NCBI RefSeq assembly: GCF_000964225.1
Contig: NZ_BAMZ01000009.1
Location: 1-64,000 of the forward strand
DNA: 64,000 nt
DNA from: Acetobacter syzygii
GTDB taxonomy: Bacteria > Pseudomonadota > Alphaproteobacteria > Acetobacterales > Acetobacteraceae
Direction of reading: 5' to 3'
The notes below the pieces were generated by a model, which saw only the letters and a program-made list of their open reading frames with translations, searched no databases and had not been told where the DNA came from. Made by a program: the position numbers and the translations under genes. Each line of letters begins with the position of its first letter. Positions within the stretch are counted from its first letter, which is position 1. Positions 5,057-50,481 of this stretch are shown here, in pieces.

Positions 5057-5069
5057 GGGCGTTTTTTTA
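5038..5069. terminator. Terminator after pssA, shared with the convergent Hyf-like genes
   Basis: GCCCTCA (5041-5047) pairs with TGAGGGC (5054-5060), flanked by AAAC on the left and a T tract on the right. The dyad contains the pssA stop and touches the end of the convergent small-subunit gene at 5067, so it can serve both strands. Confidence 0.85.
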
Positions 5070-5540
5070 TCGGCTCTGTGCGGCACTTCCAAGCATGGCA
5101 CATAACCCGTTCAGAACATCCTGTGGGCTGGGCGGGCAGCCTGCAATGGCCAGATCAACCGTAACACGGCGTTCCAGCCCCCCCATTACGGCATAATTTT
5201 CGCTGAACAGACCGCCATCCAGCGCACAGTTGCCAACGCTGATCAGCCCTTTGGGGTTTGGCATGGCATCCCATGCGGCCTGTAACACCGGCGCCATGCT
5301 ACGAGTAAGCGGGCCTGTTACCAGCAGCACATCTGCCGCACGGGGAGAGGTGACAAACCCGAACCCTGCTCCCTGCATGTCGTATGGAAGGCTGGCCATA
5401 GCCTGCAGTTCCATACCACAGCCCCCGCACCCCCCTGTATCCACATGGAAAAGCAGTAGAGGCCAGCGTGGCCCAAGTGGCTTGCGCTTCTGCCTGTCCT
5501 TCCAGAACGCAGTTTGCATGACCGCACGGATCAGCCCCAT
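5067..5540 (-). CDS. HyfI/HycG/NuoB-like iron-sulfur subunit of a hydrogenase-4-related complex
   Basis: A 157-residue protein of the NuoB/HycG small-subunit family. It keeps four cysteines in the expected places: GGCGGC (C38, C41), GNCA (C105) and GCPPSP (C135). These would hold one [4Fe-4S] cluster equivalent to cluster N2 of complex I. It is the last gene of a six-gene minus-strand run, 36 bases after the large subunit. Retaining all four ligands argues that electron transfer still occurs even though the large subunit has lost its metal site. Partner, electron donor and acceptor are unknown. Confidence 0.85.
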   Translation of the reverse strand: MGLIRAVMQTAFWKDRQKRKPLGPRWPLLLFHVDTGGCGGCGMELQAMASLPYDMQGAGFGFVTSPRAADVLLVTGPLTRSMAPVLQAAWDAMPNPKGLISVGNCALDGGLFSENYAVMGGLERRVTVDLAIAGCPPSPQDVLNGLCAMLGSAAQSR

Positions 5541-5576
5541 AAAAACACTGCCTTGTGCCTGTTCATTCCTGCACTC

Positions 5577-7073
5577 CTAGCCATCCAGTGCTGCTGCATT
5601 CATACCCAAAGAGCAGGCCAGTAACGCTGTATCTGCCGCCGCATGGTTGGGAAGCATCTGCTCAAACGCAAGGAGGGCTGATGTTTCGGGCTTGCGGCAG
5701 AAAGCCTCTGCCACACGCCCATGCGCCAGACGGACCCAATATAACACGCCACCCCACGGCCCTTCGACCAGCCCTATACCCTCTCCATCTTCCATGGAGA
5801 GGGGGGTGCTGCCGCCTGCATTTAGCCCAATACGGGCTGCGGCAAGGTCCAGCATTCGCAGGCTTTCCTCCACTTCATCCAATAGCAGAAGTGCGCGGTC
5901 CTCCGCGGTCCCGTCCTGCCGACCGGATGTGTAGCGCCACAACCCCTCGTATGCAGGGATCATCCGCCGTCCATCACAATCCCAACCGGAGGCGCGGGCA
6001 ACAGGGCCATCCAGCCCTATGCGTTCCAGTTCATCCGCCTGAACACGCCCCACATTCCCCAGCAGCACGGCCAGACCGGGGTATTCCCGCCACAACAGAG
6101 CCAGTTGTGGGTATGCCTGACGCCCCAGCTCATAAAGACTGGCACACAAATCCCCCATCTGCGAGGCTTCCCGCAGCGATACCCCTCCGGGCGTGCAGAC
6201 ATCCATTAACAGCCGCGACCCGGTAACAGGAGCTGCCTGTGCGACCAGTTTTTCGCGCAGGGCCATACAATGCGACGCCACCAGATGCACTCCAGCCAGC
6301 CGGGCCAGAGCCGCCAGTTTGTAAAGGTGGTGGAATAGCCGCTCCATTTCCAGCAAGGCGACCCGCAGCAAAGCGACTTCGGTGCCCACGCGCGCGCCAC
6401 ATGCGTTTTCCACGGCCTTACAAAATGCAACCTGATGCGCAACCGAACTCCCTGCGGCCACCCGACCAGCAAGGCGGCAGGCATCCTCCACCCGTGCGTG
6501 GCGGGAGCGAGCGGCAATACCCCGGTGCGCATAACCTGTCTGGGTTTCCGCATTAGCAACAACACCGCCGGAAAGGACAAGGCGCGTATAAAATGGTGGA
6601 ACCGCGCTACCCGTTGCCGGTCCCACATCTTCTACCCGACCTTTGGCAGCCAGCAGGGCATCGGACGGCTGGAATGCCAGAATCCCCTTATGCTGCCCGC
6701 CCCGCCCCGGCGCAGCAGAGAGCGGAGCAGAGGCGGACCAGACATCGTGGTCAAGCAAGGGGCGCACGTCCAGCGCCCACATGGCCTCGGCCCCATACAG
6801 GTCATAAATAACCCGCTCGTACAGGCTGGAGACCACCCGTGCGGGAGAGAGAGCAGGATAACGCCCATTTTCCAGCCGCAGGGTTGCCGCAAGCGGCTGC
6901 CCATCTGGCAAAAACAGGGCATGGACATCCTCTCCATCGCACCAGAGACCAACAAAAGGCAGATCATCCTGGCGGAGCAGGTCCACCATATCGCGCCAGG
7001 CCAGTTCATCCAGCCTGAAGCGCCAGTGCGTCTGGGTGTGCTCTCCAGCACAGATCAGGGAGACAACATCCAT
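5577..7073 (-). CDS. HyfG/HycE-like large subunit (fused NuoC-NuoD type) lacking NiFe cysteines
   Basis: A 498-residue protein built like HycE/HyfG: an N-terminal NuoC-like domain (residues about 1-120, with ERVIYDLYG) followed by a NuoD/hydrogenase large-subunit domain. In NiFe hydrogenases the first metal-binding motif is RxCGxCxxxH. Here the aligned stretch is RVAAGSSVAH (204-213), with alanine and serine in place of both cysteines. The C-terminal DPCxxC is replaced by DTALLAC. So all four Ni/Fe ligands appear lost, as in NuoD and in energy-converting hydrogenase-related (Ehr) complexes. The ATG at 7073 shares one base with the stop of the preceding gene. A hydrogenase activity is not supported. 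Confidence 0.85.
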   Translation of the reverse strand: MDVVSLICAGEHTQTHWRFRLDELAWRDMVDLLRQDDLPFVGLWCDGEDVHALFLPDGQPLAATLRLENGRYPALSPARVVSSLYERVIYDLYGAEAMWALDVRPLLDHDVWSASAPLSAAPGRGGQHKGILAFQPSDALLAAKGRVEDVGPATGSAVPPFYTRLVLSGGVVANAETQTGYAHRGIAARSRHARVEDACRLAGRVAAGSSVAHQVAFCKAVENACGARVGTEVALLRVALLEMERLFHHLYKLAALARLAGVHLVASHCMALREKLVAQAAPVTGSRLLMDVCTPGGVSLREASQMGDLCASLYELGRQAYPQLALLWREYPGLAVLLGNVGRVQADELERIGLDGPVARASGWDCDGRRMIPAYEGLWRYTSGRQDGTAEDRALLLLDEVEESLRMLDLAAARIGLNAGGSTPLSMEDGEGIGLVEGPWGGVLYWVRLAHGRVAEAFCRKPETSALLAFEQMLPNHAAADTALLACSLGMNAAALDG

Positions 7074-8206
7074 CAGAAGGCCCCCAGCATCATGGCCAAT
7101 GGCACCAAAAACCCCATAACCGTCAGAACCGAACAGGCTACCCGCCCAGCCATATCCTCCGGCCAGAACAGGCGGGCTGCCTCCCTGTCTGGCACGGCGC
7201 GTAACACTGCTGCCAGAATACCGCACACCGTCAGCACCGCGACGGACCATGACCAATCGGTCATGACAGAAAGCAGAAGCAGACAGCCCACAAAAGGCGC
7301 ACCGGGGGGGAAGCACGCCAGCACATTAACCGCCCAGCCCCGCGTACTACGGTTGCCACCAGCCAGGCACCAGCCGCACAGGAACAGCAATGCGGCAACA
7401 TCTGCCTCTACCCCCACAGCCATAAGGGCCAGCGCGGACGGAAAGGTCCGAAACAGCCTCTGCCGGTCACGCGAGCGACCCGCACAGGCCGTAAGCCAGA
7501 CCGACACCAGCCCGGCTGCCACCAAAGCCATTTCAAACGCCATGCCACCATGACCACGCAGGCGCATGGCAAGCAGAATGGAAGCACCTGCAAAAGGGAG
7601 GAACAGAAAGCTATCGTTCTCATCCCGCCAGAACTGCCCGAAAGGAGCAAGACCGGTTAAAATAACAAGTCCACAAGCCATCATAAGCCCACAGACCGTA
7701 CTCCCTTGCGGAAGCAGCAAGCCAGACAGGACCAGCATTGTTCCCACGGAGCCGGTACGCATTAGCCCCCATCCGGTTTTGGCCTGCCCGGCCGGACGCG
7801 TAAAAACAAATACCCCCCACGCCAGTGCGACTTCCAGAATACCCAGGCCTACTGCCGGTTCGGGGGCAACGCAGGCCAAGCCAGCCAAAGCCGTGCAGAC
7901 ATGCGGCAGGCTGCGTAACAGCCGGTCGGGCATAACGCCATTTTCCAGCACCAGCAGGAGCAGGCCAAATGCCAGCATAACGCGGCCTGCTCTTTGCACG
8001 GGGTCATCATCCCAGCCGCTGGCATTGCCACCCATCGCAGGGAACATAAACACAACAACAGACAGCAGGCAGCCAAGGCCCGCCATCCACAAAGCGACCT
8101 CCCGGCTGCGTGGGGCAGGCACGGCCGCCACTCCAATAGCCCCAACAAATGGCCACACAAATGCAAGAGCTGCCAGAAAGACGGTCGCCTGCGTAGCTAC
8201 ACTCAT
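7073..8206 (-). CDS. HyfF-like membrane subunit, shortened
   Basis: A strongly hydrophobic protein of 377 residues with about ten membrane segments, in the position of hyfF. E. coli HyfF is about 526 residues, so this copy is much shorter. The segment VILTGLAPFGQFW (181-193) resembles the antiporter-subunit motif KxGLxPxHxWLP, but the key lysine and the histidine are missing. A glutamate in LEVALAW (E125) may correspond to the conserved membrane glutamate. It overlaps the preceding gene by four bases and the next by one. The family call rests mostly on gene order and this weak motif. Confidence 0.7.
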   Translation of the reverse strand: MSVATQATVFLAALAFVWPFVGAIGVAAVPAPRSREVALWMAGLGCLLSVVVFMFPAMGGNASGWDDDPVQRAGRVMLAFGLLLLVLENGVMPDRLLRSLPHVCTALAGLACVAPEPAVGLGILEVALAWGVFVFTRPAGQAKTGWGLMRTGSVGTMLVLSGLLLPQGSTVCGLMMACGLVILTGLAPFGQFWRDENDSFLFLPFAGASILLAMRLRGHGGMAFEMALVAAGLVSVWLTACAGRSRDRQRLFRTFPSALALMAVGVEADVAALLFLCGWCLAGGNRSTRGWAVNVLACFPPGAPFVGCLLLLSVMTDWSWSVAVLTVCGILAAVLRAVPDREAARLFWPEDMAGRVACSVLTVMGFLVPLAMMLGAF

Positions 8207-8787
8207 GTGTCCTTCCCTCCGGTCGCAGGCTTTGTGCGGCGGGATTGTCTGGCGGGGCTATGGGCAGCCACCACACGCGGCATAATCCGGTGGATACACA
8301 TACCGCCCAGCAGCACCACAACCACACCAGCCAAGGCTGCAACGCCCAGCACCACGGGTTGCCGCCCCAGCACGGCGGAAAGCAGTACACCTTCAATACA
8401 TGTCAGTAATCCGGCCCATTGCCACACCATGCTCTGGCGGCACACAACCGTTACCAGCCCGGCAACCATAGCGCACAACCCTGCGGGGAAGAGCGTACTC
8501 CCTGCACGCCCACACCCAAGCAGCAGCAGAACCATTAACCCCAGAGCAAAAAAGGGCACGGCTGTGCCACTGCGCTCATGCGTGGCATCATGCTGGTATC
8601 GGGTTAAAAACACGGGAGGCGCGACAGCAAACAGCAATGCCAAACTGGCGCCAGCCTCCTGCAGGGGGGTCAGTCCATCCAGCAGCATGGCCAAAGCCGT
8701 GACCACTCCGGTCAGCAGCAAAAACCCTACACCCCGCGCAACAACACACAGCGCCACCAAGGGCACCAGAATGGCAACAAGGGTCAT
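8203..8787 (-). CDS. HyfE-like (NuoK-type) membrane subunit
   Basis: A 194-residue membrane protein with about six hydrophobic segments and a basic, polar C-terminal tail. Size, hydropathy and position (third of six) match HyfE, the NuoK-like subunit of hydrogenase-4. I see no sharp sequence motif, so the call depends on context. It overlaps both neighbours by four bases (ATGA type), indicating translational coupling. Confidence 0.7.
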   Translation of the reverse strand: MTLVAILVPLVALCVVARGVGFLLLTGVVTALAMLLDGLTPLQEAGASLALLFAVAPPVFLTRYQHDATHERSGTAVPFFALGLMVLLLLGCGRAGSTLFPAGLCAMVAGLVTVVCRQSMVWQWAGLLTCIEGVLLSAVLGRQPVVLGVAALAGVVVVLLGGMCIHRIMPRVVAAHSPARQSRRTKPATGGKDT

Positions 8788-9800
8788 TGCACGTCCTCCC
8801 CCCCTGTTATGGCGGCCTGTGACTCCAACTGTTGCGGGCCTGCCAGCACGCCCCCCTCATCCCGTTCGGCTAAAAGCGGATGAACAGACCACGTAACCTG
8901 CAAGGCCAGCACACCCAGCAAAAAAATACTCACCAGCCGAATGCGTGCCAACCTTAATGGCGGCAACACAACCAGCCTGACCAGCGCCAGCATAGTGGCA
9001 GCCAGCAGCAGCTTGCCGCCCCACAGGGCAAAATCAACCATGCACTGGATCAACCATGCTTCCATGCCAGACGCATCGGGCAAAGCCAGACCACCGGGCC
9101 AGGCCATATCCAAGGCCAGCACCACCCATGCGATCTGCACGCAATCCGCTGCCCACAACCACATGGCCCGCTCCGGCCCTGCCAGAGAGGCAAGCTGACC
9201 CTGCTGGTCGGGCCAGGCCAATGCTGGCACCAAAAACAGGGCAACACCCGCCAGCACAAACGGTGCGCCATCCGTTACGGGTGAAAGTCCATGCACGGTT
9301 GCCAGAAAGTCCGAAAAGTCACGCACACCGGCAAGCAGCACAACCGGAACCAGAGCAGGCAGCAGCAGCAACGCTCCCAGCAGGCTGCGTGCCCCCTGCA
9401 CCGCCCCCAGTCCACCACGCAACACGCGCGGCACATCCAGCAGCACCAGCGCTACAACCAGCACACTACAGATCAGCAGCAGCCCCGGGGCGGGAAAACC
9501 CGGAACAGCCAGCGTAAAAGCGGGAACAAGAGCGCACCCCAGAACGGCCAGTACCAATGCGCCCGTGCAGGCAGCGCCACTCAGCCAGTCCGCCCCCTGC
9601 TGCAAACGAGGCCGCCTGAACTGATGCCCGATATCCTGCCACCGCCCCATAACCGGAAAGGAAGATACCCCGGACACACGACCAGAGAGCCGCCCGACCA
9701 GACCATTCAGCCAAGGTGCCACAAACACCATAAGCAGTGTTTGCAGCGCAATGAGCAGCAGATAAACAAGGCATCCGCCCCATGTGAGAGAATGTATCAT
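8784..9800 (-). CDS. HyfC-like (NuoH-type) membrane subunit
   Basis: A 338-residue protein with about eight membrane segments in the position of HyfC/NuoH, the subunit that links the soluble arm to the membrane arm. The segment before LAGPERAMWLWAAD resembles the cytoplasmic loop that follows the NuoH ELPEGExE motif, but the glutamates of that motif are largely replaced (DQQGQLAS). The N-terminal WLNGLVGRLSGR and GRWQDIGHQFRRP stretches are HyfC-like. It overlaps the genes on both sides by four bases. The residue changes fit a complex that no longer uses the normal quinone-to-channel coupling path. Confidence 0.75.
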   Translation of the reverse strand: MIHSLTWGGCLVYLLLIALQTLLMVFVAPWLNGLVGRLSGRVSGVSSFPVMGRWQDIGHQFRRPRLQQGADWLSGAACTGALVLAVLGCALVPAFTLAVPGFPAPGLLLICSVLVVALVLLDVPRVLRGGLGAVQGARSLLGALLLLPALVPVVLLAGVRDFSDFLATVHGLSPVTDGAPFVLAGVALFLVPALAWPDQQGQLASLAGPERAMWLWAADCVQIAWVVLALDMAWPGGLALPDASGMEAWLIQCMVDFALWGGKLLLAATMLALVRLVVLPPLRLARIRLVSIFLLGVLALQVTWSVHPLLAERDEGGVLAGPQQLESQAAITGGEDVQ

Positions 9801-11539
9801 TTACCCACAAACAGCCCTGCCAGCAGACCCACGCCCATAAGGAGCAGAATAAGGACCATGCCCTGCGCTTCGCACCATCCTACGGCAACAAACAGGCTCC
9901 TGCGGGCATAACGCCAGAAAAATACGGCACGGCGGAAAAGGGCACCGCCGGTGCCGGGGCCACGCAGGGCCGTAACAACAGCAGGCGCAAAGAAAAACCC
10001 GTGCCATGCCGACCATAAAGGCAAGACATCCTCCTCCGCACCACCTTCTGCCGCGGCAACATCACAGACTGGCGCACCTTGGCGCCATGCCTCAACCTGC
10101 CGGGCAGAACGGTCAAAGGGCATAAACCCCAGCAGCCGCACCAGAAGGCCGACTGCCAGCACGACCAGCGCCACGCCCAGCAGCACCAGCACGGGGGTCA
10201 GCCGGGCGCTATGGCCTATAAAATGCACCGTTGTCACATCCTGCCATGTCACAGGGGGCAAGGGTGGCCCCACCACCAGATGGTCCGCCACAAACAGCCA
10301 GAGTCCAGGAAAAAAAGCCATGATGCTCCCAAGCACGGCGCATAGCCACAAAGGAAGCACCATGGCCCGCACCTGCCCGGCTCCTCCACCACGGTGGGGC
10401 AAAAACACCAGTGCTGCACGCAACAAGCCCGCACTGAATACAACGCCAAGAGCAACAAAAAACACCACCAGCCCAACAACAAGCAATGCCATGGCTGGTT
10501 GACTGGCCTCCACCGAATAACCTGCCCCTGCCAGGGCTGACCACAACACCAAAAATCCACCACAGGGCGGCAGAACAGAGCACTGGGCCAGTACGACGCC
10601 CATCAGGCATCTGGCCAGAGGCGTGTGCAGCCCGGCACCACTCTCCAGTTCCCACCTGCGCGCCAGCCAAAGCACGCCCAGCAAGGCCACAACAGGCGCA
10701 CCCATACCCAGAATAACGGTGGTCCGAAAAGTATCCGCCCCCCCCAGAGGGGAGGAAAGCGCCAGCACAAGTGCAAATACCAGCATTCCATACCAACCGG
10801 CAGCCAAGCCAGCGACAAGGCTTAAAGCCTGCTGCTGGCGCATGGCCTGCGCAAGTCCCGCACAGGCCACTGCACCACCACACAGAAGCAGCACAACCTG
10901 TGGCAGCAGTGGTAATTCCCCCACCTCCGCCAGCAGGCGGCCAAGCAGGAACAGGCCAATACAGGCAGGCAGAACCGCAAGCGGTCCCCGCTGGACGGAC
11001 ACCGCCCACCCGACAAGAACCACCATGACCCCCAGCAGGGGAACAGACAAAATACTATCGGCTGGAATACACGCAGGCAGCACGGCAAAGGGCAGGCACA
11101 ACCCGCGCTTGCCTCGCCCTGCCAGCAGCACAAGCGCCGTACCGGTAAAAAGACCAAAAACCAGAGGCGAAAGTGCGAGCACACCCATACAGGCCAGCAC
11201 ACAGGCCACGCAGGCCCGCCCCCTGCCAGCCAGTGCCCCTACACAGGCCAAAATCGCCAGCATGGGTAAAGAGGGGCCATCCGCCCCAAAAACGGGGAAC
11301 CACCCCAACTCCCCTTCGACCCGGAAGGATGCTCCAAGCAGGGCCAACACCCCCAGCAGCCCCCACAGACCTGCCAGAATTTCGGCTCGCCAGACTGCCA
11401 CTCCGCGCAGCAGACGATCTGGCGCAACAGCAAAAAAGCCCAGCGCAACCAGCGCCAGCAGCAACCCACAAAGAACGGAAGACAGTAGAATGGAACCCGG
11501 CCCCAAACCTATGAACATAAAACCGGCGGATAACACCAT
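9797..11539 (-). CDS. HyfB-like antiporter-type membrane subunit
   Basis: First gene of the complex, 580 residues with about 14-16 membrane segments. The C-terminal part (ARQVEAWRQGAPVCD, a loop, then WSAWHGFFFAP) is like the end of HyfB. The central region lacks the KxPLHxWLPxAHxxAP motif and the paired glutamate that carry protons in NuoL/M/N and true HyfB. ATG at 11539 has only a weak ribosome site, and it starts 44 bases after the methyltransferase stop, so it may be co-transcribed with that gene. The reading frame is intact throughout. Confidence 0.75.
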   Translation of the reverse strand: MVLSAGFMFIGLGPGSILLSSVLCGLLLALVALGFFAVAPDRLLRGVAVWRAEILAGLWGLLGVLALLGASFRVEGELGWFPVFGADGPSLPMLAILACVGALAGRGRACVACVLACMGVLALSPLVFGLFTGTALVLLAGRGKRGLCLPFAVLPACIPADSILSVPLLGVMVVLVGWAVSVQRGPLAVLPACIGLFLLGRLLAEVGELPLLPQVVLLLCGGAVACAGLAQAMRQQQALSLVAGLAAGWYGMLVFALVLALSSPLGGADTFRTTVILGMGAPVVALLGVLWLARRWELESGAGLHTPLARCLMGVVLAQCSVLPPCGGFLVLWSALAGAGYSVEASQPAMALLVVGLVVFFVALGVVFSAGLLRAALVFLPHRGGGAGQVRAMVLPLWLCAVLGSIMAFFPGLWLFVADHLVVGPPLPPVTWQDVTTVHFIGHSARLTPVLVLLGVALVVLAVGLLVRLLGFMPFDRSARQVEAWRQGAPVCDVAAAEGGAEEDVLPLWSAWHGFFFAPAVVTALRGPGTGGALFRRAVFFWRYARRSLFVAVGWCEAQGMVLILLLMGVGLLAGLFVGK

Positions 11540-11583
11540 GAGTGCAGGCTGAATACAATCTGTTCAGCAACACTGGAACCGGA

Positions 11584-12333
11584 TCAAAGCGTTTTTCCTG
11601 CTCCGGGTATGCGCGCCATCCCGGTGGCAGACACACGCATACGCGTAAACCACCCTTTTTTATGGCAGACAGACAAAGGCAGGGCAGAATACATCTCTGG
11701 CACGGCTTCGACCAAAATCAGACTTCCACCACCGGGGCAAAGAACCTTGCCAGCGATATCCATCCGCCTGCCCCGTCTGAGCGTGCGACAGGCATGGCTT
11801 GCAGGAAGGAAGACCGCCTCATCCCACCTTTCCGCCCGCAACATGGCAGCGGCCAGAGTCTGGCGCAGTGTATGGCGGGTAAAGGGCATATCCCGCGCAA
11901 AAGGAGTGCGCCGCAACCGCGCGCGCCCGCCCAATCTGCTGGGAACAACCATAAGCAACCGCCCGTCATCACGCAGAACGCGGGCTGCTGCCCGCAGGAT
12001 CTGGACTGGATTGGTGCGCGTCTGCAAGCCGTGTGCCAGCACAATGCGGTCAAACTGCTGCCCTTCAAACGGCAGGTTATCCGGGTCCACCACACAGCAT
12101 TGACCAGACAGACCTAAAGCTTCCGCAGGATTGCCCGCAAAACAGGCCCCTATACGCACCGTTGTATGGTCTCCAATACGGGTCAGGTACGGTGCGGCTC
12201 CACCCAGCCCCAGAACAGACTGGTTTTTCAAATCCGGCCAGAACCACCGCATCCGCTCGCCCAGCAGGTCCACACAAACCTTGCCTGCTGGAGTTCTGTA
12301 AAAACTTTCTTCACGCACCATGGCTTCCTGCAT
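11584..12333 (-). CDS. Class I SAM-dependent methyltransferase
   Basis: A 249-residue protein with the methyltransferase fold: motif I is SVLGLGGAAPYL (about residues 39-50), the acidic VVDPDNLPFEGQQFDRIVLAH block follows, then the VLRDDGRLLMVVPS strand. Such proteins are often encoded opposite gloB in Alphaproteobacteria, as here. The substrate is unknown. A second ATG four codons downstream (12321) is possible. It is the first gene of the minus-strand run that continues into the Hyf-like genes. Confidence 0.85.
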   Translation of the reverse strand: MQEAMVREESFYRTPAGKVCVDLLGERMRWFWPDLKNQSVLGLGGAAPYLTRIGDHTTVRIGACFAGNPAEALGLSGQCCVVDPDNLPFEGQQFDRIVLAHGLQTRTNPVQILRAAARVLRDDGRLLMVVPSRLGGRARLRRTPFARDMPFTRHTLRQTLAAAMLRAERWDEAVFLPASHACRTLRRGRRMDIAGKVLCPGGGSLILVEAVPEMYSALPLSVCHKKGWFTRMRVSATGMARIPGAGKTL

Positions 12334-48960: not shown

Positions 48961-50481
48961 TTACTGGCTAGCCAGATGAAGAACCGGGTTCTGCACGGAA
49001 TACGAGGCAACATCGCCCATATTGGCGTGCACAGCCTGCATGACCATAGGGTCAAACAGCCGGGTAAAGGTGCTTGGGTGCACCCCCATCCACAGCGTAA
49101 GCACGGCCAGCGGAGCCAGCACCGCAATTTCCCCGACCGTCAGGTCACGGAGCAGCCCAACCGTACCACGTACGCTGCCAAACAGTACCCGACGATAAAG
49201 CGAGAGCATGTAAACAGCCCCCATGATCATGGTGCCACCAGCCAGTAGCGCAACCCAGATGGACACATGCACGGCCCCCATCAGCACCAGCAGTTCTCCC
49301 ACAAAGGCACCTGTGCCGGGCAAGCCCACATTGGCCATGGTAAACAGCATGGCCAGCAGGGCAAGCACAGGCATCTGGCGCGCAACACCCCCCAGATCAG
49401 CAATCTCGCGCGTTTCTGCCCGCCAAGCCACGGCTGCTACACAAAAGAACAGTGCGGCAATAACCACCCCGTGGGAAAGCATCTGAAAGATTGCCCCATC
49501 AATCCCTTCCGCCGTGAGGGTAAACAGCCCGACTGCGATCATGCCCATGTGGGAAAAGGACGAATAGGCGATAAGCCGCTTCATATCGGTCTGGGCAAAG
49601 GCCACAAATGCCGCATACAGAATGGCCACGACGCCCAGCGCCAGCACATAAGGTGCAAACTCACGCACGGCATTGGGGAACATGAGCACGCCAAAGCGCA
49701 GCAAGCCATATGCCCCTGTTTTGGACAAAACGCCCGACAACATGGCCGAAGCAGGCGTGGGAGCCTCCGTATAAGCATCGGGCAACCATGCGTGGAGCGG
49801 AAACAAAGGCAGCTTTACGCCAAAAGCCAGCAAAAAGGCCAGAAGGAGCCAGCCCTGCAAGGAATGGGAAAAACCAGCGTGCATAAGAGCTGGAATATCG
49901 GTCGTGCCCGCGTGCAGCCACATGGTGATCAGCCCGACCAGCATGAACAGCGAGCCACCAAAGGTAAACAGGAAGAACTGGAGCGATGCCCACACCCGTT
50001 TGGCACCACCCCATATGCCAATCATCAGGCAGCCCGGAATAAGTGTTGCTTCGTAAAAAACGTAAAACAGCACCAGATCCTGAGCAGAGAACAGGCCAAA
50101 CAGGGCTGTTTCCAACAACAGCATGGCGGCCACAAAGTCCCGCCCCTGTGTTTGCACGCTACGCCAGCCAGCCCCCAATGCCAAAGGCGTTAGAAAAGCC
50201 GTGAGAAGGATAAAGACCAGACTGATCCCATCCACCCCCGTATGGTAGGAAATACCATAATCGCTCAGCCACTTCAGGCGGGTTTCAAATTGCAGGCCGG
50301 GTTGCTGGGGATCAAAACCAATCCACAGCAGCACGCTCAGCCCAAAGGTTAGCAATGTAGTCCACAACCCCAACCAGCGCGCCGTGCGGTCCCGCTCCGG
50401 TCCATGACCAGGGCAAAGAAAGGCCGCAACAGCGCCTGCGAGAGGAAGATAGGTTATCAGCGAAAGCAGGATAGGCTGCAC
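48961..50481 (-). CDS. nuoM: NADH-quinone oxidoreductase subunit M, encoded alone
   Basis: A 506-residue membrane protein with about 14 helices, full length for NuoM. Both key proton-path residues are kept: E144 in FYEATLIP and K223 in AFGVKLPLFPLHAWLPDAY. The conserved SSFSHMG and GLPGTGAFVGE segments are present. No other nuo gene lies nearby; mutL is upstream and an rhtA-like gene converges from the other side. It may be a second copy, a displaced complex I gene, or part of another transporter. Location cannot decide this. Confidence 0.9.
   Translation of the reverse strand: MQPILLSLITYLPLAGAVAAFLCPGHGPERDRTARWLGLWTTLLTFGLSVLLWIGFDPQQPGLQFETRLKWLSDYGISYHTGVDGISLVFILLTAFLTPLALGAGWRSVQTQGRDFVAAMLLLETALFGLFSAQDLVLFYVFYEATLIPGCLMIGIWGGAKRVWASLQFFLFTFGGSLFMLVGLITMWLHAGTTDIPALMHAGFSHSLQGWLLLAFLLAFGVKLPLFPLHAWLPDAYTEAPTPASAMLSGVLSKTGAYGLLRFGVLMFPNAVREFAPYVLALGVVAILYAAFVAFAQTDMKRLIAYSSFSHMGMIAVGLFTLTAEGIDGAIFQMLSHGVVIAALFFCVAAVAWRAETREIADLGGVARQMPVLALLAMLFTMANVGLPGTGAFVGELLVLMGAVHVSIWVALLAGGTMIMGAVYMLSLYRRVLFGSVRGTVGLLRDLTVGEIAVLAPLAVLTLWMGVHPSTFTRLFDPMVMQAVHANMGDVASYSVQNPVLHLASQ

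Follow-up and report, generated by a model that had tools for sequence, protein, structure and literature searches.

A predicted pump-less descendant of energy-converting hydrogenase-related complexes in Acetobacteraceae

Relatives of respiratory complex I are viewed as machines that link redox chemistry with the pumping of ions. The founding paper on one group of them, the energy-converting hydrogenase-related (Ehr) complexes, is reportedly that of Marreiros in 2013. Ehr complexes lack the ligands of the nickel-iron (NiFe) site and their function is unknown; in the available parts of the literature, charge translocation is only suspected from the presence of antiporter-like subunits (PMC6349859, PMC10284858, PMC7304191), and the coupling of a redox reaction to it is likewise only suspected (PMC6349859). 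The DNA analysed here, a stretch of 64,000 nucleotides from Acetobacter syzygii (contig NZ_BAMZ01000009.1, positions 1 to 64,000; hereafter the window), carries between positions 5067 and 11539 of its minus strand a cluster of six genes in the order B-C-E-F-G-I of hydrogenase-4 (Hyf). Judged from its sequence, the encoded complex is a descendant of Ehr and a new, pump-less variant of the complex I superfamily. It has no NiFe site, its membrane subunits show no conserved path of charged residues for protons, one [4Fe-4S] ligand set is retained in almost all lineages, and every gene is under purifying selection.

All six open reading frames (ORFs) are free of internal stops. In the order B to G they overlap by 4, 4, 4 and 1 bases, and a gap of 36 bases precedes I, so that the gene order, open frames and junctions described in an earlier sequence-only reading of the window are confirmed. 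B (9797–11539; all genes of the cluster lie on the minus strand) encodes a HyfB-like antiporter-like subunit of the NuoL/M/N type with 580 residues, C (8784–9800) a HyfC-like membrane subunit of the NuoH type with 338 residues, E (8203–8787) a HyfE-like membrane subunit of the NuoK type with 194 residues and F (7073–8206) a HyfF-like antiporter-like subunit with 377 residues. G (5577–7073) encodes the HyfG-like large subunit of the NuoC plus NuoD type (498 residues) and I (5067–5540) the HyfI-like small subunit of the NuoB type (157 residues). G starts with the ATG at 7073, the GTG at 7316 chosen by the ORF caller falling within F, and its nearest named relatives are those of A. lambici (85% identity), A. 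fabarum (84%) and A. lovaniensis (84%). Complex1_49kDa is the family matched by G (3.3e-16) and Oxidored_q6 that matched by I (2.3e-26), both subunits staying below the cut-offs in NCBIfam. The expectation of the sequence-only reading that standard annotation would call the cluster a hydrogenase gains no clear support: of the six products, just G and I are placed by Pfam and NCBIfam, as complex-I-like; the label "nickel-dependent hydrogenase large subunit" is carried by 2 of the 20 plasmid relatives listed, which are Ehr-like with less than 32% identity. Since B, C, E and F have no informative match in Pfam and NCBIfam (F only an adenovirus family, E-value 0.13), their names required proof, and profile and fold comparisons back the four identities. 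E aligns with the E subunit of Ehr by hhalign with a probability of 97, and the homology of F to the F subunit of Ehr rests on an hhalign probability of 94 (E-value 2.4e-8) plus the fold. The predicted folds of F and B, with a mean predicted local distance difference test score of 65.8 and 70.0, respectively, have complex I antiporter-like subunits and HycC as their top matches, HycC being the best one for B. Homologous membrane and peripheral core subunits place the complex in the complex I superfamily.

Alignments indicate that the proton-translocating residues are also lost, a point absent from the sequence-only reading, and because of this loss the complex departs from the view of Ehr as ion-translocating. 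The ten HyfB residues scored are, with helix names that are in part presumed, the Glu of transmembrane helix (TM) 5, the Lys of TM7, two His, the Lys of TM8, the LKR Lys, two His and the Lys of TM11 and the Glu of TM12. The set is complete in 21 of 22 readable Ehr-type loci, with 9 of 10 in the remaining one (L126), and none of the 50 loci in the lineage of the window retains more than one of the ten, the 22 loci with HyfB rows of unclear state being left uncounted as losses. The window has none: the TM5 Glu, TM7 Lys, TM8 Lys, TM11 His and Lys and TM12 Glu are all gone, and the replacement residues at these sites vary from lineage to lineage. The importance of such antiporter channel residues is described in the available part of PMC11496545. 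The HyfB row of one Ehr-type locus, L107, is actually its F gene, HyfB lying off the contig end, and this locus was excluded from the 22 but kept in the pump-retaining group of 23 loci used for the tree, the lysine densities and the residue recounts. An alignment also places in B, at 10985–10993 (about residues 183–185), a deletion of about 19 residues that removes the PLHVWLPLAHPAAPSHV signature of the Ehr relatives. A conserved Cys in B was considered as a general feature and turned out to be lineage-specific.

The other membrane subunits show a similar erosion. Twelve acidic residues of the NuoH-like subunit are shared by 16 or more of 17 Ehr rows, with either Glu or Asp at one of the sites; C of the window retains Asp56 only, the other 11 sites being non-acidic. 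Most of the 12 are also lost among 40 window-type rows; position 49 (Asp) remains acidic in 22 of these rows and position 213 (Glu) in 23, and towards the C-terminus a Lys and two Arg are mostly still there. The second channel Glu of E is gone. B, C, E and F of the window together contain 6 Lys in 1489 residues, two of them in B, one in F and two in the C-terminal tail of E. The mean number of Lys per 100 residues of B, C and F falls from 1.30 in 23 pump-retaining loci to 0.73 in 40 pump-lost loci (p 2.8e-7), with a wide spread of 0.00–4.65 in the latter; the corresponding values for G are 1.05 and 0.92. Ordinary antiporter subunits are found in Ehr-type relatives of other genera and families, as in L057, whose two subunits match Proton_antipo_M at 2.9e-50 and 2.2e-53. 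F is strongly constrained among Acetobacter-type loci: 14 Acetobacter sequences have a mean column identity of 75% and share conserved GW(D/E)DDPVQRAGR and CGWC stretches, neither of which occurs in other lineages. The CGWC stretch is invariant in these 14 sequences, but since it is absent in other lineages, it is not a general cofactor site.

The best solved-structure match of a G profile built from 18 homologues is HycE of E. coli formate hydrogenlyase (E-value 4.5e-71). The HycE alignment pairs RVCGICGFAH with RVAAGSSVAH (residues 204–213; 6435–6464) and SLDPCYSCTD with SLGMNAAALD (residues 488–497; 5583–5612), indicating that all four NiFe cysteines are replaced in G, by Ala206, Ser209, Asn492 and Ala495; Gly490 takes the place of the canopy Asp. 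The replacement of RxCGxCxxxH by RVAAGSSVAH had been recognised in the sequence-only reading, which mistook DTALLAC, located at residue 481, for the equivalent of the C-terminal DPCxxC; the claim of a large subunit without NiFe ligands stands despite this error. Cysteines restored at the four ligand columns were looked for in 95 rows: no row regains the four, none has more than one and 10 rows have one. The positive control L163, a real group 4 hydrogenase in the same alignment, has all four (CCCC). The HycE alignment and the ligand columns thus rule out a hydrogenase with misaligned ligands. The maturation gene hypD, sought in 10 genomes, is absent from that of the window and found in 4, including that of L163; and there is no ferredoxin-like HyfH among the six ORFs of the cluster, the rest of the genome not having been searched for one. 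The complex therefore lacks the four-Cys ligands, hypD and cluster HyfH of group 4 [NiFe] hydrogenases (Hyf/Hyc), and the earlier claim that it is not a hydrogenase holds for want of ligands and hypD. L163 itself, a large subunit of the true group 4 [NiFe] hydrogenase type, belongs to an Acetobacteraceae genome 1.9 Mb in size, in which hypD is located nearby.

Beyond the ligands, the buried residues His249, Glu400 and Arg360 of G are the equivalents of HycE His284, Glu437 and Arg395, which the available part of PMC9474812 describes as a putative proton path. The 50 pump-lost loci retain His249 in 46, Glu400 in 43 (with Asp in 5 more) and Arg360 in 47. The Arg equivalent to the canopy Arg478 of HycE is present in 23 of 23 pump-retaining loci versus 7 of 50 pump-lost loci, and the gate Glu of EPGHF in 23 of 23 versus 4 of 50.

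In the small subunit, two of the four Fe-S ligands and a conserved Glu lie in a CxxCxxE motif (Cys38, Cys41 and Glu44; 5409–5429), followed by Cys105 (5226–5228) and Cys135 (5136–5138), in agreement with the earlier statement that all four Fe-S cysteines are retained. The four Cys and the Glu are found in 48 of 50 pump-lost loci, the others being L128, which has lost three Cys, and L053, which has no copy of I in the locus. The four Cys and the Glu are likewise intact in 85 of 87 loci when every type of locus is taken together (exceptions: L128 and the Ehr-type L108, with one Cys missing). Of 13 further copies, 10 have all four cysteines (L167 lacks one, and L165 and L166 are the other exceptions), and the cysteines are retained even in copies relocated away from the operon. 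The Glu is lost in L177 and L178. The match of L178 contains an internal TAG and the best large-subunit match in its genome reaches 9.1e-39, so loss may possibly be in progress there. L128, L165 and L166 belong to a single genus, g311, in which I lacks three of the four Fe-S cysteines in 3 of 3 genomes and the six open genes are retained, E and F being assigned by place and size.

Ratios of nonsynonymous to synonymous substitution rates (dN/dS), estimated by simple counting and with dS exceeding 1 in some cases, lie between 0.01 and 0.31 for all 90 values (15 pairs, six genes). The mean over the 15 pairs is lowest for I (0.05, range 0.01–0.09) and highest for C (0.16), and the neighbours alaS, psd, pss, methyltransferase, gloB and one more ORF give 0.01–0.23. 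These values for all six genes support the earlier suggestion that the complex is in use. G is present in 47 of 48 genomes of the same genus and uninterrupted in 43; it is split in G005, G010 and G029, cut by a contig end in G025 and missing from G041, which is 68% complete. The three broken cases among the 47 matches, the outcome of looking for frameshifts in related strains, are all from drafts of 130–240 contigs, and in one of these cases G is open in a different assembly of the species. Genomes as small as 1.5 Mb (L040) and 1.7 Mb (L039) still retain the six genes. L040 contains an insert of 1.5 kb between C and E (10290–11786) with opposite-strand reading frames of unknown kind, and the six genes are still kept.

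Among 200 genomes of the family, 175 match G at an E-value of 1e-60 or better, at least one of these matches being the true hydrogenase L163; 23 have weaker, NuoD-like matches and 2 have none. In a tree of 87 large subunits rooted on L163, pump-retaining Ehr complexes are basal, and therefore the change most likely ran from pump-retaining to pump-less forms, although the tree comes from a short search without bootstrap and has long branches and a very distant outgroup. The window-type clade comprises 60 rows (41 pump-lost, 19 with HyfB unclassified and no pump-retaining one; Shimodaira–Hasegawa-like approximate likelihood ratio test 95) and is nested within the pump-retaining Ehr complexes of Acetobacteraceae, in keeping with the earlier assignment to the Ehr relatives. 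Near-identical Acetobacter-type loci (L021, L022, L023, L026, L048, L050, L099, L100 and L101) and broken, short or duplicate ones (L024, L033, L035, L036, L095, L096 and L097) were dropped beforehand. In 13 of the 21 loci listed, G is preceded by a complete series of four hydrophobic ORFs that share its strand and have matching lengths, most of them unrecognised by profile; in L160 these four ORFs contain no Lys at all. The series is partial in 7 of the 21, being cut by contig ends in L130, L133 and L138, whereas in L144, L145, L148 and L164 only part of it lies above the hydropathy limit applied. L146 has G and I and no hydrophobic same-strand ORF upstream, and its membrane genes may lie elsewhere or have been lost.

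These observations lead to the proposal that the complex is an energetically uncoupled Fe-S electron-transfer or redox-sensing module, to which we assign a chance approaching, without reaching, an even one. The six products of a complex descended from a pump-retaining Ehr complex in Acetobacteraceae would still assemble, and an Fe-S cluster would be present in the HyfI-like subunit. This cluster may relay single electrons from a soluble partner to a small acceptor at a remodelled pocket between I and G or, alternatively, act as a redox or iron sensor, and the membrane arm would only anchor the module in the membrane, so that no ions are moved. For most lineages, the almost universal presence of the Fe-S ligands and the selective constraint on I argue for such a role, and the channel loss would fit cells living in acid and respiring via fast, weakly coupled chains. 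Several findings weigh against this proposal. Neither the canopy Arg nor the gate Glu survives in the window, and most pump-lost loci have other residues at these positions too. The Tyr and His that presumably position the quinone in complex I, at sites which we take to be those of its quinone pocket, are not present in the window. The search for operon partners found none, and the cluster contains no electron donor, acceptor or ferredoxin-type subunit. In the first 11 pairs, which are Acetobacter-type, F is the most constrained subunit (mean dN/dS 0.04, versus 0.06 for I). Finally, electron transfer via this cluster cannot be the role in g311, because three of the four Fe-S cysteines are gone there.

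Genus g311, and the fact that the bulk of the membrane arm has been kept, speak for a scaffold instead. A stepwise stripping of the NiFe site, of the proton channels and, in one genus, of most Fe-S ligands may have left a pseudo-enzyme, a large Lys-poor membrane scaffold kept by selection for a function other than energy conversion; this history is advanced tentatively and at rather less than an even chance. In its strict form, with catalysis lost, the complex would be a membrane platform or anchor for proteins or lipids and the Fe-S cluster a structural or sensory leftover, which is a close rival of the electron-transfer or sensing module, although on the doubtful side. In g311, G (dN/dS 0.09–0.14) and B (0.21–0.24) remain constrained with all six genes open, and the four-ORF series before G persists in 13 of the 21 loci listed. 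The same family also offers a precedent, since Acetobacteraceae retain a bc1 complex and COX1 without ligands, for which the available part of PMC10715153 suggests a structural role. The conservation of the Fe-S cysteines and Glu44 nearly everywhere else and the lowest mean dN/dS, that of I, stand against a mere scaffold.

The same precedent of deranged respiratory complexes (PMC10715153, available part), together with the presence of complex I in the window's genome, raises the question of whether the cluster stabilises complex I or a supercomplex, as suggested for the deranged bc1 complex. However, 13 of 17 genomes tested, from g254, g272, g279, g286 and g312 and chosen since most had seemed to lack NuoD in the scan of 200 genomes, retain G although no NuoD passes the cut-off and Proton_antipo_M is not matched at all, indicating that the complex is not merely a complex I stabiliser and excluding that role for these five genera. 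Loci were retrieved from 7 of these 13 (L151–L156 and L162), and in all seven the hydrophobic four-ORF series precedes G; as a general explanation stabilisation appears improbable. An ordinary Ehr complex still pumping ions through other residues would agree with the tree position inside Ehr, with the antiporter-like folds of B and F and with acidic positions such as E213 that persist in many relatives; the scarcity of Lys in B, C, E and F and the lineage-dependent replacements of the lost HyfB residues make it very improbable. The fast divergence of the membrane subunits between genera, the relaxed-looking small subunit of g311 (dN/dS 0.37–0.51), the internal TAG in L178, the bare L146 and the 25 of 200 genomes without a match at 1e-60 would suit a decaying relic heading to loss, the least credible reading given 90 of 90 dN/dS values no higher than 0.31, the values of the neighbour genes, and the retention of G in 47 of 48 genomes of the genus and of all six genes in the smallest genomes mentioned above.

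Two sets of neighbours were considered as partners of the operon. A methyltransferase-like ORF (11584–12333, minus strand) lies directly upstream and is kept there in Acetobacter loci, but it is displaced elsewhere, being about 5 kb off or unmatched in other lineages, and was rejected; psd and pss reflect merely conserved synteny. A canonical nuoM-like gene (48961–50481, minus strand; 506 residues) with an intact Lys/His/Glu signature lies about 38 kb away in the window, apart from the nuoD-, nuoB- and other antiporter-type matches of the genome, which are on another contig (G000:C92).

The family offers a natural series from hydrogenase through pump-retaining Ehr to the pump-less form and to one genus with most Fe-S ligands gone, the gene set being kept. 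The complex of vinegar bacteria is thereby a natural test of what the architecture offers besides energy conversion, a question testable in these easily grown bacteria and in relatives without complex I, and it is a reason for caution before labelling these genes as hydrogenase or NADH dehydrogenase. No report of this complex in Acetobacteraceae or of a pump-less Ehr was found in a literature search outside which most subscription journals lie. The main text of PMC10715153 contains no occurrence of Hyf, Ehr, Mrp or "energy-converting", and the available part of the A. pasteurianus genome paper describes complex I, notes its absence from G. oxydans and does not use the word "hydrogenase" (PMC3751514).

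With complex I (Nuo) the window's complex shares NuoL/M/N-like folds of F and B and the NuoD and NuoB families of G and I, but the cluster has no genes for an NADH- or F420H2-oxidising input module, no ferredoxin module and no channel residues. With formate hydrogenlyase and hydrogenase-4 (Hyc, Hyf) it shares HycE as the best structure for the G profile and HycC for the B model, and it differs in lacking the NiFe cysteines, a cluster HyfH, a C-terminal extension past the ligand motif and a genomic hypD. The deranged bc1 complex and COX1-like proteins of Acetobacteraceae, as far as the available part of the source describes them, resemble it as respiratory proteins kept after the loss of cofactor ligands, and differ in being other complexes (PMC10715153). 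With Ehr it shares six subunits in the same order, a NuoCD-like large subunit without NiFe ligands that is related by descent and a NuoB-like small subunit with four Cys, and its clade is nested inside the Ehr-type loci of its own family. The Mrp-type antiporter-like subunits are homologous as well, yet Ehr loci retain the HyfB Lys/His/Glu, the NuoH-like acidic set, the canopy Arg and the EPGHF Glu, of which the window has lost all but one acidic position.

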